Shown here: one piece after another, positions 1,865 to 15,557 of the stretch | Layout of the letters: each line of letters starts with the position of its first letter | Numbering within the stretch: the stretch's first letter is position 1 | Position numbers and translations under genes: made by a program | The notes under the pieces: generated by a model | Database searches by the model: none | Seen by the model: the letters and a program-made list of their open reading frames with translations, nothing else | Told to the model about the DNA's origin: nothing | IMG/VR virus record: IMGVR_UViG_3300035670_000321 | Span: 1-49,442 of that record | DNA: 49,442 nucleotides | Source of the DNA: a virus | Strand: one strand, 5' to 3'

Positions 1865-4189
1865 TTATTCAATTCTAAATCCCCTATCAATGGACTTGGG
1901 CCGGATGATGTGCAGCGTCTCTTTGGCGCGGGTCAGCCCCACATACAGCAAGCGGTTCACGTCATCGGCGTTATGGGCGTATTCGTTGGCGAACTTGGGC
2001 GAGAGGTCCGTGAGCAGTAAGACGTGATCCGCCTCCCCGCCTTTCGCGCCGTGGATCGTAGAGAGCTTGATCGGCGCTCTGTCGTTTAGCTTCGCCCCAC
2101 GTCGCAGGATCGAGATGATGTACTGGCGCTGGGCATCCGATATTTTGGTCAGCACCTTGTGCCAGATATCGTTGGTCAAAAGACCAAATGATTCCTGCAA
2201 CTGCGTCAAGGTGTATTCGCGGTTGGGATCGATGTCGCGCAGGGTCTTGAACCCGCGTTTGACGAACTCAGCCCCTAAGAACCGGTAGATCGTTTTGACC
2301 ACGGGCATGGGCATGGCTTTGCCCTTACGCAGCGCTTCCCAGCCGAGTACGGCGGTCAGGATGTTCTCGGAGATGCTCCGTTGTCCGTGGCGCTCGAACA
2401 TCAATCCCTGTGACTTTAACCACTCATGCAAGTCGTTTAGCATGTAGTTGGTGGAGGCAAGGAGTAACCAATCACCTTGTGTGACGTTGACGTGTTCAAA
2501 GGCTTCGTAATAGAAGATGCGGCCCTCTTCGGTGCGAGGGTGCCACTCCTTCTCTTGCCGCGAGCGGATGCGGTTGACCACTTTGTTTGCTAACGCGTGA
2601 ATCTTTGCAGGGACACGGTAGGATTGTTGTAAGACCTTAACATTACCCTCTAAAGAGAGGAATGCTTTAACGTCCGCTCCTGCCCAAGTAAACACACAGT
2701 TATGCGTCAAAACGCCATCTGCAAAGTAATTATGGTGCTTTTCTACGTCAAGAGAATAAACCTCACATGTTTTTATTTTGGCAGCTAGGGAGAAGTTTTC
2801 CCATTGAATTTTTTTACCAGCTATCACACCAATACGCATTGCTGATGGAATCAAGGATGCAGCATGCGCTTCAAATATTTGTGATCCTCCGCGTTTAGCA
2901 CTGATCAGACTTCTTTCATAAAGTGGATATTCGAAAGACACATCGAGTGCTTCAAAGAGTTGCATAGCCGCCGGGTAAGTGGGGATTTCGCTGAATAGTT
3001 TGTCTGTGGCTTTCTGGGAGAGGACGGAAGAAGCACCTGCTTTGAAAACAGTCTGAGGTATGCCAAAAAGATAAGACCAAAGCGTTTCGTAATAAGTACT
3101 TTCCTCTATGGATTCAGTCACGCGCAAAACCCACAGCTTGTCTGCGCGTTCCCCGTGGGCTCTTACCCACGCATGCACACACCCATCCGCCCTAAAAAGT
3201 TGACATTGCCCAATGCGGAAGTTGTTTCCTTTCTGCATCAAATAAACTACGCGCAGGTGTATAACCTCTTTAAGGGGTTTCCAGCGAACGATGCAGTGGT
3301 GATTGTCTGTGTAGCTTGATATATGCCCTGAGGCCGTGGTCACCGTATAAATTTTCCCGGTATACGTGCGACGAGCCTTTTTAAACGAATAACCGTTTTT
3401 ATACCCCGTAACATGAGAACCATTGCGGTCATAGCAAATCAGCCGGTGAATAGCAGGGTCTAAGTTTTTTAACAAAACCTCCCCATCCGTTGTTAGTATT
3501 TTTGTATGCCCCGGCTGGCACTGATCGTCGTCTCCTGCTATGTACACGTTATTGCTCCTTTCAGCTAGGGCATACACCATTTGCCATTGTAGCCTAGAAA
3601 GGTCCTGCGCTTCATCGATGATCACCGTTTCCAGCTTTGGCAGGTAGTCCGGCTCTTGCACGATCTGCTCAAGAAGATCGGTGAAGTCCATTAGGTTGTT
3701 CGAATACTTGTAGTGTCGGTACGCACGTTCGACATATTCGAAGTGAAACCACTCAATCGGAATTCGAGAATTGTTGTAATGCGTTTTTAAATCAACGCCA
3801 CGGATGCGGGCGAGGTTGATTTCGTTAAGTATTGGGTTATCCGTCTGAACGACAAACTCTTCGTCTCCAGTGCTCACACTCATGTCCAGTCCTGCTTGCC
3901 GCGCAAACTCGCGGTAATGCTCTGGCTTCATGATCTCGTTGTTCGATACGCGCAGGCAACGATAGGCGAGGCTATGCAGCGTTCGGAACCACGGGAAGTC
4001 CGTCTCTGCGTTGAGCTCGTTGAATTTGGCGATCGCACGGTCCCGCGCTTCGTTGGCCGCTTTGCGTGTGAACGCGAAGTAGCCAATCGAGCGAGAGGGC
4101 ACCCCGGACTCTAGTTCTTGTTCGACCAAGTTTAGAAGATACGTGGTCTTGCCAGAGCCGGGAGGGCCGAAGATTTTATGAATCTTCAT
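1865..4189 (-). CDS. SF1 (UvrD/Rep-like) DNA helicase containing an intein
   Basis: ATP-dependent DNA helicase, 774 aa as translated and about 500 aa after protein splicing. Visible helicase motifs are Walker A GPPGSGKTT (residues 8-16), Walker B IDEAQD (191-196), motif III GDDDQ (219-223), motif IV QQSYRVP (521-527), motif V with STIHGAKGGEADHV (710-723) and motif VI YVGLTRAKE (749-757). Motif III is split right after the Gln by an intein (residues 224-497), and the sequence resumes with CVFTWAGAD. The gene starts 14 bases inside the preceding 81-aa gene and is followed after 4 bases by the polymerase, so it belongs to the replication operon. Phage relatives act at the fork or in recombination; the precise role here is inferred. 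Confidence 0.93.
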   Translation of the reverse strand: MKIHKIFGPPGSGKTTYLLNLVEQELESGVPSRSIGYFAFTRKAANEARDRAIAKFNELNAETDFPWFRTLHSLAYRCLRVSNNEIMKPEHYREFARQAGLDMSVSTGDEEFVVQTDNPILNEINLARIRGVDLKTHYNNSRIPIEWFHFEYVERAYRHYKYSNNLMDFTDLLEQIVQEPDYLPKLETVIIDEAQDLSRLQWQMVYALAERSNNVYIAGDDDQCQPGHTKILTTDGEVLLKNLDPAIHRLICYDRNGSHVTGYKNGYSFKKARRTYTGKIYTVTTASGHISSYTDNHHCIVRWKPLKEVIHLRVVYLMQKGNNFRIGQCQLFRADGCVHAWVRAHGERADKLWVLRVTESIEESTYYETLWSYLFGIPQTVFKAGASSVLSQKATDKLFSEIPTYPAAMQLFEALDVSFEYPLYERSLISAKRGGSQIFEAHAASLIPSAMRIGVIAGKKIQWENFSLAAKIKTCEVYSLDVEKHHNYFADGVLTHNCVFTWAGADVKAFLSLEGNVKVLQQSYRVPAKIHALANKVVNRIRSRQEKEWHPRTEEGRIFYYEAFEHVNVTQGDWLLLASTNYMLNDLHEWLKSQGLMFERHGQRSISENILTAVLGWEALRKGKAMPMPVVKTIYRFLGAEFVKRGFKTLRDIDPNREYTLTQLQESFGLLTNDIWHKVLTKISDAQRQYIISILRRGAKLNDRAPIKLSTIHGAKGGEADHVLLLTDLSPKFANEYAHNADDVNRLLYVGLTRAKETLHIIRPKSIDRGFRIE
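2699..3520 (-). other. Intein in helicase motif III (274 aa), with a GIY-YIG-like insert
   Basis: The in-frame insert begins with Cys224 (block A, CQPGHTKIL), has a block B-like segment ending TDNHH (near 294-298), and ends with block F/G VYSLDVEKHHNYFADG then VLTHN, followed by Cys498 as the +1 nucleophile. These are the Hint splicing signatures. At 274 aa it is about 130 residues longer than a mini-intein. The extra part (about 310-460) has VVYLMQKGNNFRIG followed by a WVLRV strand and a helix with YYETLWSYLFGIP, which resembles a GIY-YIG fold nuclease rather than LAGLIDADG. That assignment is inference. The insertion point is an ATPase core motif, a typical intein site. Confidence 0.9.
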
Positions 4190-10318: not shown

Positions 10319-13300
10319 CTATCGTAGCGTTGCGTCAAACGGGAAAAGACGTTGCAACATCTCGCGACTTGATCCACCGCCCGCCGCAGGCGCGCCACCA
10401 CCTAACTGAGGAGGACCTCCGCCACCAATATTTAACCCCGGAACCCCCCGTGTGGAGGCGGTTGCGGGTTGGCGACGTGGTGCAAAACTACGCACAGGCT
10501 GTGGCGCTTGGACCGTGGGCTCTGGGCCGGGTTCAGTAAACCGTTCGTAGTTCAAGCCTGCGGCGGTCAGATAGGCATGCATCTGACGCGCGAGCATCAA
10601 CTTCTCACCTTCTGACTGACCGCGACGTAGGAGCAGCGCCATCATCTGTGGGTCTTTCGTGGCCTCTTCGATGATCCCTCGCACCAACAGCATCGGAGAC
10701 TTATCGAAGATTTGGCGCATATACTTCGAGCCTGCTGAAGCCGCAATCAGCGATCCGGGTCCACTACCTGACACACTAGTACCAATGCGCGAGCCGACCA
10801 CACGCAATGCCAGTTCGGTTGCTGCGTCTGCGCCCTGCATGACGCCTTCCATAAGCTGACGATCGCCCAGCGATTGCTCGACACGTATCATCGGATCGAT
10901 GATGCGCCTGAGGTTCTTGCCTTCCGAGAGGGTCATCACACCCTGCGAGCGCAGGATGTTGTAAATCGAAGGTTGTCCTTGGGCAATGGGACTGAAAAAC
11001 GCATCCTTGAACGCCTGCGCGTTAAAGCCCCTGTCGCCTCCGGCCTTGGTAAACGCATAATCGTAGAGACTCGACTTCAGCCCCGCTGCGGCATCCGGCC
11101 CACCCGCTTTTGCCAGCTTGACGATGTTTGAGAGACTGCGAACAGGGAACTTACTGTTCAAGGCATCCGCGATCGCCATGGACGGCGACTCACGCTTTAG
11201 CACTTGCGCAAAGGCTGTCTGATTTCTCAGGCTCTTGTCCAATACGCTGTTAGCACTTGCCGTTGCCTTAAACGCGTTTTCTGCTTTAACCGCATCGGAT
11301 AGATCATCCGTGATCTGCAATCTGTCCAGCAGCGGTCTGCGCTTTTCAATGAAACGGCTTAGGCGAGTAGCGCTTACGCGGCCCGTATTCGGGTCAATCG
11401 TCTCTGCTGCAGCCAGACGCAGAATACGCTGCTGTGCGTCTCGAATCGATACCACACGAGAACTGGACAGATCGGCTAAGGGCTTCAAGGACAGCGCTTC
11501 TGCGCTATCTCTGCCAAATCGTGCGACGGCATCGGTGTACTCTTTGCGAAGCATGCCTACTGCGTCTTCGATGTCGGCCATCCGCATCGCAGCCAAGTCG
11601 TTGTTCGCGCCGAAAGCCCGCTGGACAAGCACTTCTGGTGGATAAGCAAGGGCACCCGTGCCTTTTTTACTGAGCATCTCCCCGGCAAAGCTGCGAGTGA
11701 AGTAGTCATTCAGCGTTCTTGAAAAGCTGCGCGCTTCGTCCAACGCAGGAGATTTGACCTGATCCAAGTCCTTCATCATGCTGTTCGCAATGTTGCCGAA
11801 GAACCGCGCGTCAGCGTTTTCTCCTTTGACCGCAGCATCACGCGCAAGGTCTAGAAGGTTGGAGCGCATATTGACCAGTTCGCCCAGTTGGACATCGCGC
11901 CCTTTTGGCAAAAAGCGATCGGGGACAATCCCTGTATTGGCAAACTCTTCCGTCTGCCTGCCTAATTTGTAGCGAGCGACATCCGCCTCTGTCACTCCCA
12001 TCTGCCCCATCACTTTTTTGACGAGGGGAGGCACGGTGCCTTTATAGACAGAATCTGCAATAGTCAGCGTTTCGTTCAGGAAGTCGCGAACGGTATTGGT
12101 GGGAACAACTGAGGGCAACGTTACTCGCGTTACCTCGCGGGTACGCATGAGCGGTCTACCCGCTTCATCCACCATCTTGCCGACCTGAACACGCTCAGTC
12201 ACTGTCTGAGTCGTGGGCCGTGACAAGTCCGCCACGGCACGTGTCCACAACGTGCGCTCATGACCCCGTGCATCGGACAAGGCATCCTGCGTCGCTTGAC
12301 GCACAATCTCGCCAATCTGTTGACGGGCCTCGGGCGTGTCTTTGCTAATGCGTTGAATCTTCTGTGCAGCGTTTAAGAGCGCAACGCTCTGCCGGTTTTC
12401 CAGCATGGCGTTGAAGGCTTCTTCACGTAACTGTGCAGCAGCACGAAGTGCTTGTGGGCTCCCGACCTGTTCTAGGTTCTTTGCCAACAGCGTGTAAGCC
12501 TGTAGCGTCTTTAGTCCTTGGTCCGCGATCTCTCCGCCATACTTGGCGTTCTCTCGCGCTAGGGTATTTTCCAAGATACTGAGCGCACGAACACCCGTCT
12601 TTTGCCCAGCCGTTGGCTGTGCACCTCTTGGGACGTTCGCCTCAAGCGAGCGGATGACCTTGTCAACGTCCTCGCCTGCGTCTTCGAGGATCGAGCGTAG
12701 CTTGTTGGCTGCTCGGCTCTGCCGTGCGTCTTTTGAAAAGGATGCCGCGATGTTGCCCATCAGGTCCTTGGCAGAACCCATGTGGATGAACAGCCGAGAA
12801 GGGGCGAGCACACCGCCGACAATCTCAGAGGCCAAACGTGTGCCGGGTTCCCCCGGCGCATAGGCTTCAGCCATACCGCCACCAACCCCAGCACCTGCGC
12901 CAGAGATCGCCTCTGCTGCAAGGAAAGATTTTGGGTAAGCCTGAGCAGTTCTGCCCATGGCCGCTGTCACATCTGTCAGGAAACGCGAAGCACGTGCTGC
13001 GCCTTCCATGCCGAACTTTGCTGCTGTGGGCTCCAGTATGCGGATAGCCTCAGAAACGCGTTGTGCCTGCGTGACAGGAATATTGAACGCGATGGGTGCT
13101 AACGCAATCGTATCGCCCCACGTCTTACCGCCTTCGCGGTACGGCACAAGGTCTTGACGCGCTACGCCGGGATAGCGAATGTCAAACTCATTACCTATAA
13201 GCGCGCCTATGCCTACGCCAGCCACCGTGGCACCGGCGATACCTAGAGGGGCGTATGGCCCCATCAAAGGCGCTAATCCGGTGCCTGCACGAAAGCCAAC

Positions 13301-13579
13301 CATGCCGCCTGTGACAGAAGGCGCGGTGCGCGACACGCCCTCTAATAGACCGTAGCCCACTTCGGTGGCTTTCTCGCCGACCGTGGGCTCCCCTGCTTCA
13401 GACAATGCCTCGACTGTCTCGGGCATCCCAGTGACCGGATTAATCGCACCCTCTGCCGCGCCAGTGCTTGGCACGGCAACACCCGGAGGCGGTTTGCCTG
13501 TCAACAACTCAGACGCTCGACCCCCTCCAGCAGGAGAAGACAGTGCTTCTAACTGCTGTTTCAAGGTATCTTCGGCCAT
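10319..13579 (-). CDS. Large putative internal virion/ejection protein, 1086 aa
   Basis: No catalytic domain recognised. The N-terminal 130 residues are Gly/Pro-rich, with INPVTGMPE (46-54) and a hydrophobic Gly/Ala-rich stretch (about 90-130) that could insert in a membrane. Most of the rest is long helix, and the C terminus is Pro/Gly-rich (GGGGPPQLGGGAPAAGGG). Size, helical content and position at the end of the late region, beside three more large proteins of similar style, suggest a podovirus internal core or DNA-ejection protein. Its ATG overlaps the stop of the 657-aa gene by one base (TAATG). Confidence 0.72.
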   Translation of the reverse strand: MAEDTLKQQLEALSSPAGGGRASELLTGKPPPGVAVPSTGAAEGAINPVTGMPETVEALSEAGEPTVGEKATEVGYGLLEGVSRTAPSVTGGMVGFRAGTGLAPLMGPYAPLGIAGATVAGVGIGALIGNEFDIRYPGVARQDLVPYREGGKTWGDTIALAPIAFNIPVTQAQRVSEAIRILEPTAAKFGMEGAARASRFLTDVTAAMGRTAQAYPKSFLAAEAISGAGAGVGGGMAEAYAPGEPGTRLASEIVGGVLAPSRLFIHMGSAKDLMGNIAASFSKDARQSRAANKLRSILEDAGEDVDKVIRSLEANVPRGAQPTAGQKTGVRALSILENTLARENAKYGGEIADQGLKTLQAYTLLAKNLEQVGSPQALRAAAQLREEAFNAMLENRQSVALLNAAQKIQRISKDTPEARQQIGEIVRQATQDALSDARGHERTLWTRAVADLSRPTTQTVTERVQVGKMVDEAGRPLMRTREVTRVTLPSVVPTNTVRDFLNETLTIADSVYKGTVPPLVKKVMGQMGVTEADVARYKLGRQTEEFANTGIVPDRFLPKGRDVQLGELVNMRSNLLDLARDAAVKGENADARFFGNIANSMMKDLDQVKSPALDEARSFSRTLNDYFTRSFAGEMLSKKGTGALAYPPEVLVQRAFGANNDLAAMRMADIEDAVGMLRKEYTDAVARFGRDSAEALSLKPLADLSSSRVVSIRDAQQRILRLAAAETIDPNTGRVSATRLSRFIEKRRPLLDRLQITDDLSDAVKAENAFKATASANSVLDKSLRNQTAFAQVLKRESPSMAIADALNSKFPVRSLSNIVKLAKAGGPDAAAGLKSSLYDYAFTKAGGDRGFNAQAFKDAFFSPIAQGQPSIYNILRSQGVMTLSEGKNLRRIIDPMIRVEQSLGDRQLMEGVMQGADAATELALRVVGSRIGTSVSGSGPGSLIAASAGSKYMRQIFDKSPMLLVRGIIEEATKDPQMMALLLRRGQSEGEKLMLARQMHAYLTAAGLNYERFTEPGPEPTVQAPQPVRSFAPRRQPATASTRGVPGLNIGGGGPPQLGGGAPAAGGGSSREMLQRLFPFDATLR

Positions 13580-15549
13580 TATTCCGCTCCTTTTGTCACG
13601 CGAACTTCGCTACCATTCCACAAGAAGGGAGTGCCCGGAGGATTTTTCCTCGTGAAGTCCTGCAACGCCTTGATCGTATAAATCTTCTGCGGAATACCCA
13701 GCTTTGGTAAGAAGTTTTTAAGCGTGGTCACAATCTGTGCATGCGCTTTTCGCTGTTCGACAGGCAGATTTTCGTTTGTTGCGTTTAGTCGCGCATCTGT
13801 TAGACGTGCTGTCAGGTATTTGTCAATACCGATCAGTTTATTACGCAGCTTCTCTGGGTCGTCGAAGAACCGAGGCTCAATGTTTAATTCGGTCTCAATC
13901 GCCTCACGCTCTCGTTGTGCAAAAACGGGGCTGTTTTGCAAGCTCTTTACAAGCTCACGGAATTCGCCCATGTATTGAGCACGTGCCTGCGTTACGTCCT
14001 TGCCTACGCCACCCAGTCCGGGAACGCTTGAAATAACGTCCTTAACCGTAGCAACAGGTCCGGTCAGCACAGGCGTTAATTGCCACAGCGTTTTCGCAGC
14101 AGTGGGTTTAACGGCGGGCGTTACATCAGAAGGCGCTTCGCTTACGGGCGCTCCGGGTACTCCGGGTTCCACGGGCGCTGCAGTGCCTCCCTCTGGCGCA
14201 GGAGCCTTCTTGCCAGTGGTTGGAACAGGAATATCCTTCCGTGCTCGAATCGAATTCGTTACGAAGTCGGGGATAGGCGGAACACGCGATTGAACATTCC
14301 CGGTAAACGGATCAGTGAAATACGTGGGTTCCGAGATGATCGAATACGAACTCAAGAATCGACGGTCGTTCTCTGGCGTCAACTTACCCGCAGCAAAGTC
14401 AGGCGCGAACCGCGTGACAAAATTCCACGCAGCGCCTTTTACCCCAGTGCCAAAACCTTGTCCCTTGGCAGTTGCTTTGATGATGTCTGCCGACAGCTTG
14501 CGCTGCGAGTCGATCAACCTGAAGTTGTACTCGCGGATCAATGCAACGTCCTTCTCACCGGCTTGTAGGGCAAGCGCCTTGATCTCACGCTGTGCTTTTG
14601 CAAGCTCACCCGCACGTGCGCCAATCATGGCAGGCACGTTTCGCATACCTGCCGCGATACGCCCGACAGGAGATACTGCACCTCTAATGGGGCGCCCTTC
14701 CGCGTCAACACCGGCAGCAACGTTTAACGCCCCTTGTGCAATGTCAAACAACATCTGCGATTGCACAGTGTTCTTGTCCACGCCTAAAAGACGCTCATAC
14801 GTAGGCAGACGCGCTGCCATCGCACTTTCGATGGACGGCGTTGGCGTAGGCTGCGCGCTCATCAGATTCATCACATCTTCTTGCGCTTTTGCCACGATCT
14901 CAGGAGGGTAGTAGGCTTGCTGCCCACTTAGATCAACGGGGGTCACGCCCTCCTCACCGGACCCTCCTTGAAAATGTTGAACAATCCCGCCCTCTTTCAT
15001 TGCAATGGGCGCTTGTTGTTCAGCCGCAGCAGGCAACGATGCAACGCCGCCCGGTGGCATCGGTCCCGGGGCAGGCATTGGTGGCGTGGTCTGTGGTCCT
15101 TGAGCCATGGCCGCTAAATCGGCAACCCCGCCCGCAGGTGCAGCCATCGGCGCGCCGGGCATCGGCATCGGTGGGGCAGGCATCATGCCTCCCGGAGGGG
15201 GTGCCGCCATCTGGGATTGCTGTGCCAGCACCGGCTGCAGCAGTGCCAAGACTTCGGTTGGCGTCTCGGCAGCGGCACGGTAGCCGACTAAGTCAGCCAG
15301 TTCCTCGACCCGTGCGTCTACCGAGCGCATGTCGCCCCGCAGATTGTTCATCAGGATTTCTGGCGAGTCTGGACGGCGATCCAGCATTTTTGCCATATCG
15401 CTATCGCCCTCTTCCTCGTAGTCATCCTCTTCCATGCCGTTGATGGCGTCCATGAAGCCCTGCATGATGCCGACGTTGTCGGCCTCCTCAGGCGGGACAG
15501 GAGCCCCCTTCTTCTTGAACATCGGCCTGTCAAGTACTTTAGATTTCAT
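13579..15549 (-). CDS. Putative internal virion/structural protein, 656 aa
   Basis: Begins MKSKVLDRPMFKKKG when the second of two consecutive ATGs is used; AGGAG lies five bases before it, while the first ATG (15552) is too close. Residues about 115-180 are a Met/Pro/Ala-rich linker, followed by MKEGGIVQHFQGG, a glycine motif that recurs in neighbours. The middle (about 255-380) is helical and the C-terminal 200 residues are mixed. No enzyme motif is seen. It lies between the 410-aa and 1086-aa genes, all on one transcript, and is probably a virion-internal or ejection component. Confidence 0.7.
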   Translation of the reverse strand: MKSKVLDRPMFKKKGAPVPPEEADNVGIMQGFMDAINGMEEDDYEEEGDSDMAKMLDRRPDSPEILMNNLRGDMRSVDARVEELADLVGYRAAAETPTEVLALLQPVLAQQSQMAAPPPGGMMPAPPMPMPGAPMAAPAGGVADLAAMAQGPQTTPPMPAPGPMPPGGVASLPAAAEQQAPIAMKEGGIVQHFQGGSGEEGVTPVDLSGQQAYYPPEIVAKAQEDVMNLMSAQPTPTPSIESAMAARLPTYERLLGVDKNTVQSQMLFDIAQGALNVAAGVDAEGRPIRGAVSPVGRIAAGMRNVPAMIGARAGELAKAQREIKALALQAGEKDVALIREYNFRLIDSQRKLSADIIKATAKGQGFGTGVKGAAWNFVTRFAPDFAAGKLTPENDRRFLSSYSIISEPTYFTDPFTGNVQSRVPPIPDFVTNSIRARKDIPVPTTGKKAPAPEGGTAAPVEPGVPGAPVSEAPSDVTPAVKPTAAKTLWQLTPVLTGPVATVKDVISSVPGLGGVGKDVTQARAQYMGEFRELVKSLQNSPVFAQREREAIETELNIEPRFFDDPEKLRNKLIGIDKYLTARLTDARLNATNENLPVEQRKAHAQIVTTLKNFLPKLGIPQKIYTIKALQDFTRKNPPGTPFLWNGSEVRVTKGAE

Positions 15550-15557
15550 CATCGCTC

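Follow-up and report, generated by a model that had tools for sequence, protein, structure and literature searches.

The window analysed here, a stretch of viral DNA of 49,442 nucleotides, contains a UvrD/Rep-like helicase gene which is interrupted in motif III by what is quite probably a mobile class 1 intein, bearing a nuclease of the GIY-YIG fold and homing into intein-free helicase genes. The evidence comprises the intein itself and its empty counterparts, the predicted fold and conserved residues of the insert between its two splicing halves, the distribution of that insert among other inteins, and an exchanged tract of DNA centred on the insertion site.

A class 1 intein in motif III of the helicase

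The open reading frame at 1865-4189 encodes a UvrD/Rep-type helicase on the basis of matches to PF00580 (Pfam, E 3e-25) and to the DNA helicase family phrog_1967 (PHROG, E 9e-80). The gene order around it is primase, small ORF, helicase and DNA polymerase I, which is identical to that of phage DSL-LC04. At 10319-15552 of the window, a pair of long ORFs, of 1086 and 657 aa, adjoins tape-measure-like and ejection-like proteins; a PHROG search with these two ORFs gave no match. The precursor and its parts are as follows:

1865..4189, minus strand: UvrD/Rep-like SF1 helicase precursor, 774 aa (PF00580, PF13361, phrog_1967)
3521..4189, minus strand: N-extein, aa 1-223, with C-terminal GDDDQ (alignment with intein-free DSL-LC04)
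2699..3520, minus strand: intein, 274 aa (C1 to HN), helicase residues 224-497 (motifs, intein_Cterm, model)
3266..3520, minus strand: Hint N-half, intein aa 1-85, with block A CQPGHTKILT and block B TDNH (alignment, model)
2699..2878, minus strand: Hint C-half, intein aa 215-274, with blocks F and G (HN) (intein_Cterm, model)
2696..2698, minus strand: +1 Cys codon (Ala in every intein-free allele seen)
1868..2698, minus strand: C-extein, beginning CVFTWAGAD (alignment with intein-free DSL-LC04)

The segment from 3520 to 2699 on the minus strand is an intein in this helicase, and the coordinates and motif III location given for it in the initial annotation hold exactly, with intein-free alleles running contiguously through the same point. 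The insertion point lies after GDDDQ of motif III and before Cys+1; the intein-free homologue of DSL-LC04 reads GDDDQ directly followed by AVYTW at this position, and once the intein is removed in silico the sequence reads as in more than 80 intein-free alleles, which continue through this point without a break. The same annotation had described the Hint blocks as intact, with Cys1, a terminal HN and a +1 Cys, and indeed all class 1 residues are present, namely C1, T71-H74 of block B (TDNH), H273, N274 and C+1, while block F (VYSLDVEKHHNYFADG) is a clear match. NCBIfam intein_Cterm scores 28.7 bits, above its cut-off of 15.6; Pfam Intein_splicing scores 28.2 bits, short of its cut-off of 35.8, and NCBIfam intein_Nterm is slightly short of its own. 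An AlphaFold2 model of the whole intein, with 28 relatives in the alignment, reaches a pLDDT of 94.8 and superposes on solved inteins and a hedgehog domain with Z of 15.2-20.1 over 121-139 residues.

Because the splicing residues are intact and the empty site is exact, we infer that protein splicing would join the two exteins. Within this helicase group the +1 Cys is limited to intein-bearing alleles, the intein-free ones having Ala; therefore the element must bring its own +1 Cys codon in order to splice.

Predicted fold of the insert

Blocks B and F are separated by an insert of 129 aa (intein aa 86-214), of which the parts and principal residues are:

3032..3265, minus strand: GIY-YIG-like nuclease core, intein aa 86-163, with Tyr93, Arg102 (FRIG), Arg120, Glu124 and Glu145 (alignment, models, profile comparison)
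2879..3031, minus strand: fast-diverging two-helix tail, intein aa 164-214 (31-41% identity versus 65-78% for the core)
3242..3244, minus strand: Tyr93 codon, at the position of the GIY tyrosine (alignment, UvrC alignment)
3161..3163, minus strand: Arg120 codon, putative catalytic Arg (Arg in 27/28)
3149..3151, minus strand: Glu124 codon, at Arg+4 (Glu in 28/28)
3086..3088, minus strand: Glu145 codon, putative metal ligand (Glu in 28/28)

Single-sequence and profile searches of the insert against Pfam, NCBIfam, PHROGs and PDB sequences returned no family. The HMMs of PF01541 (GIY-YIG) and PF10544 (T5orf172) gave no match at E<10 in any of 28 relatives, LAGLIDADG gave none in the insert by motif or by HMM at E<10, and the HNH, Vsr/EDxHD and PD-(D/E)xK families likewise failed to match it. 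The initial annotation had called the insert GIY-YIG-like rather than LAGLIDADG and had named the HMM comparison with GIY-YIG, T5orf172 and LAGLIDADG as its check; that comparison was silent on all three, and the GIY-YIG assignment is made via fold and profile because no sequence HMM matches.

Modelled alone with the 28 relatives, the insert attains a pLDDT of 93.9 and shows the topology β-β-α-β-α followed by two helices. β-β-α-β-α is the known element order of GIY-YIG nucleases. A Foldseek search of the PDB with this model gave no significant match (best E 1.1). VIA superposition of the Foldseek PDB candidates placed GIY-YIG proteins in all of the top ten positions, led by the UPF0213 protein BH0048 (Z 4.8, rmsd 4.3, 80 residues), with Slx1 at Z 3.9-4.4, UvrC at 3.7-4.0 and unrelated folds at 3.0 or lower; values below 5 are modest alone, and the weight lies in a single superfamily filling the top ranks. 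Among the predicted viral proteins of BFVD, the first three neighbours are inteins of the same family (E 1e-10 to 2e-8), after which intron endonucleases and proteins of Hef/Seg, T5orf172 or GIY-YIG type make up most of the named rows. Further, hhalign aligns the insert profile to the UvrC GIY-YIG domains with 79% probability, collinearly over VYLM, RIG and EA..E, and to UvrC and YhbQ combined with 58%, above every decoy (maximum 15% for 60 shuffled profiles, below 1% for reversed ones). The same comparison was negative against T5orf172 alone and YhbQ alone, and likewise failed between YhbQ and UvrC, two true GIY-YIG families, with such small profiles.

On these models the insert very probably has the GIY-YIG fold, and its nuclease appears by fold to be a distinct lineage, outside PF01541 and PF10544 as defined. 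Its fold, residues and conservation led us to reject readings of it as a LAGLIDADG, an HNH or a decayed insert.

Putative active-site residues

The segment VVYLMQKGNNFRIG (intein aa 91-104) is followed by the Arg120 helix, a Trp-bearing strand (aa 128-135) and the Glu145 helix, and the layout originally described for the insert is thereby borne out on both alignment and model. Y93, R120 and E145 occupy, in the models and the alignment, the elements expected for a GIY-YIG domain, i.e., the GIY motif, helix 1 and the next helix. Alignment A3 comprises 28 non-redundant inteins, all of which have Glu124, Trp130 and Glu145, while 27 of them have Arg120, none of these positions being fixed by the search pattern (see below). 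The catalytic Arg and Glu, whose absence from a structural model had been named beforehand, along with another fold, as the result that would speak against the assignment, are hence in place.

The likeness to the superfamily's name motif was found to be partial, extending to the GIY Tyr, the Arg and the Glu but not to the second Tyr. The YIG position reads [FW]R[IV]G, with Arg102 replacing that Tyr in 28/28 inteins, although the search pattern prescribed this position; tblastn-found relatives have the Arg too. I-TevI, UvrC, Eco29kI and Hpy188I have a YIG with the second Tyr and a His or Tyr at Arg+4, the latter position being Glu124 in 28/28 of the inteins. The YIG Tyr is not universal in the superfamily, since T5orf172 sequences also lack it and have KIG there. 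Additionally, the core alignment shows no invariant Asn, with a GIP region where the C-terminal active-site Asn would be expected. With the YIG Tyr and the Arg+4 His/Tyr replaced, and no equivalent of the C-terminal Asn identified, the domain may cut differently or only weakly. The search pattern itself included Tyr93, Leu-Met, Lys-Gly and Arg102-x-Gly104, so that their invariance in the loci it retrieved is in part built in; the relatives found by tblastn (phi92, KP13-16, RYC and the plasmid loci L186 and L187) retain YLM and RxG, and KG not always.

Relatives and hosts of the insert domain

A tblastn search with the insert recovered relatives from SPO1-like and phi92-like phage inteins and from a methyltransferase intein of Streptococcus phages. 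The degenerate DNA pattern YLM-x-KG-xx-[FW]R[IV]G detected 44 viral contigs, every one of which (44/44) encodes the insert domain, and the non-redundant cases that were read over their full length all have it within an intein; the motif layout of the insert is thus not due to chance. A few further copies reside on bacterial contigs and plasmids, and those read are within inteins (7/7). Among the pattern- and tblastn-found relatives no free-standing copy was encountered. A search for related loci by exact peptides of the whole window intein gave no match, these peptides being unique.

The host proteins are helicases (SPO1, phi92), methyltransferases, a portal protein and an exonuclease. The same intein type was observed after HEP in N6/N4 DNA methyltransferases at five loci (L037, L041, L043, L004 and L186), mostly of phages or prophages but including a Providencia plasmid, with ParB_N also present in L037, L041 and L043. 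It also occurs in a Mu-like portal protein (L047, 3506-4357) and in a PD-(D/E)xK exonuclease (L052, 6523-7392), and the hosts therefore extend beyond helicases and methyltransferases.

Some of these genes show more elaborate arrangements. The helicase gene of Klebsiella phage KP13-16 (L007, 1858-5454) appears to carry two inteins, the first in the Walker A region with the LAGLIDADG-like motifs LGVLIGDGYL and LRGLMDTDGS, and the second in motif III with the GIY-YIG-like insert. At L018 (8049-10694, minus strand) a second intein-like C-terminus, VYSLDVDKYGTYVSNDIVTHNC, precedes the GIY-YIG-type intein by about 20 residues within one ORF. The helicase inteins of phi92 (L005) and KP13-16 have about 70 extra residues past the nuclease core (phi92: GRYRVRKYFNSYREAL), which resemble a small additional DNA-binding domain.

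Intein-free alleles and a tract of exchanged DNA

Intein-free homologues, a search for which had been proposed at the outset, proved to be common. The window C-extein retrieved seven helicases, 83-93% identical and all intein-free (7/7), and the DSL-LC04 helicase retrieved 80 contiguous intein-free relatives; the latter search peptide spanned the insertion site, which favours empty alleles, and a few loci are common to both searches. At the site, the intein-free alleles read GDDDQ and then A.

The window allele is about 86% identical to its closest empty allele, L184 (median of 150-nt segments), whereas the 150-nt segment at the site shows 61%, despite the conserved motif. The apparent co-conversion tract has two arms:

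3521..3630, minus strand: upstream arm, ~110 nt (informative sites, identity)
2639..2698, minus strand: downstream arm, ~60 nt (informative sites, identity)

Informative sites were those at which the intein-bearing L022 and L023 agree and differ from two close empty alleles. Inside -110..+60 the window matches the intein-bearers at 21/27 such sites, versus 25/191 outside (Fisher 1e-11, 0/217 circular shifts), the bounds having been set after viewing the data; with fixed bounds of ±60 the match is 16/21 (Fisher 1e-8, 7/217 circular shifts). For the tract segment, the two nearest of 86 sequences to the window are the intein-bearing L023 and L022. L184 remains 81-82% identical to its intein-free kin in this segment, just as in the rest of the helicase gene. 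The window allele, by contrast, falls to rank 80/86 relative to L184, and it is therefore the window that is the recombinant, or recipient.

Patchy presence at a fixed site and flank co-conversion, the two signs by which a homing endonuclease is recognised, are both found here. The common empty alleles and the tract favour homing of the intein, as had been suggested for the insert. Judged from the alignments, the tract of about 170 nt is apparently the mark of a past homing event, in which the window was the recipient and the intein came in from another phage lineage. Between the inteins of the window, L022 and L023, identity is 65-78% in the nuclease core, 50-67% in the Hint halves and 31-41% in the helical tail. 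By this measure the nuclease is not decaying, and the variable tail is a possible target-recognition region.

Alternative explanations and proposed mechanism

The insert might have the GIY-YIG fold with its nuclease lost or never present, aiding splicing or folding, in which case the intein would have moved by ordinary phage recombination. The replaced YIG Tyr and Arg+4 His/Tyr are in keeping with this, and ordinary recombination could yield a short flank exchange. Nevertheless, we regard it as unlikely: Arg120, Glu124, Trp130 and Glu145 are conserved, independently of the pattern, across inteins of unrelated genes, the core is the most conserved part of the insert and roughly equals or exceeds the splicing halves in conservation, and the exchanged tract has the insertion site at its centre. 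That the insert instead has some other fold merely resembling GIY-YIG (a LAGLIDADG remnant, HNH, Vsr/EDxHD or PD-(D/E)xK) could draw on the failure of every GIY-YIG family HMM and on VIA Z values of just 3.7-4.8, but those other families are equally without a match, and the β-β-α-β-α topology of the model, the confinement of the top ten superpositions to GIY-YIG proteins, the many similar viral-model neighbours and a profile score beating all decoys render it very improbable.

A different history would have the intein ancestral in the helicase of this phage group, with the empty lineages having lost it via recombination with empty donors. Its presence at the same site in many related helicases across phages would fit such a history, which is nonetheless quite improbable in view of the behaviour of L184, which at the site stays as close to its intein-free kin as given above while the window allele ranks so low relative to it. 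Loss by the empty alleles was rejected, the tract segment marking the window as the recombinant.

Under the favoured reading, that of a homing intein with a GIY-YIG-fold nuclease, the helicase would be made as a precursor from which the Hint domain would excise the intein, joining Gln223 to Cys498. The nuclease, using Tyr93, Arg120, Glu145 and a metal ion, would cut intein-free helicase genes at or near the GDDDQ codons, with the variable helical tail guiding it to the target. Repair off the intein-bearing copy would then bring in the intein together with its +1 Cys codon and, from the donor's flanks, about 110 + 60 nt. The recombination footprint is seen in the window; the DNA cut is an inference.

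Relation to known systems and implications

Inteins at the helicase motif III site are already known, the SPO1 helicase intein being annotated in the database; the novelty would lie in a homing intein whose GIY-YIG-like nuclease belongs to no curated family. The helicase intein of the Bacillus phages SPO1 and CampHawk (gp34.33, 275 aa) occupies the same motif III site with the same architecture, as does that of phi92-like coliphages (347 aa, with the ~70 additional residues). They share the nuclease core with the window intein at ~34-37% identity, and the records read annotate them as inteins only, without a nuclease type. Relative to the GIY-YIG superfamily (I-TevI, Seg, the UvrC N-domain, Slx1, UPF0213/YhbQ and T5orf172), the window insert shares the predicted fold, the GIY Tyr, the Arg and the Glu, but differs in having [FW]R[IV]G rather than YIG and a Glu at the Arg+4 position, in matching no Pfam family and in its intein-only occurrence. 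LAGLIDADG (PI-SceI type) and HNH inteins resemble the window intein in carrying a nuclease between Hint blocks B and F and in their homing lifestyle, whereas their nuclease fold is unrelated.

The usual intein nuclease is of the LAGLIDADG type (PMC7765530, PMC5050341, PMC8772380). A 2006 survey of the superfamily recorded GIY-YIG domains in group I introns and free-standing ORFs, and none in inteins (PMC1564403); the description of such nucleases as rare in inteins, with which the insert was first introduced, was in this respect an understatement. The split class 3 phage intein AceL NrdHF has an associated putative GIY-YIG homing endonuclease, whose ORF stands on its own between the two parts of a fractured gene (PMC7891396), whereas that of the window is fused in frame within a continuous class 1 intein. 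No published GIY-YIG domain fused inside an intein was found in the openly accessible literature.

The GIY-YIG/intein fusion is present even in the textbook phage SPO1 and comes with a natural homing record; given this record and the paired intein-free alleles, nuclease and splicing are directly testable. Being compact, with a nuclease of ~78 aa in the core plus a short tail and an intein of 274 aa overall, the system would rank among the smaller intein-borne homing systems. Its nuclease lineage, seen only within inteins, would use Arg for the YIG tyrosine and Glu for the Arg+4 His/Tyr, and these unusual residues bear on the mechanism of DNA cutting by GIY-YIG enzymes. On balance, we lean slightly toward the broader view that an intein-only GIY-YIG lineage with altered active-site chemistry, spread together with the Hint domain as one mobile unit across unrelated phage genes, may constitute a major unrecognised type of intein homing endonuclease.
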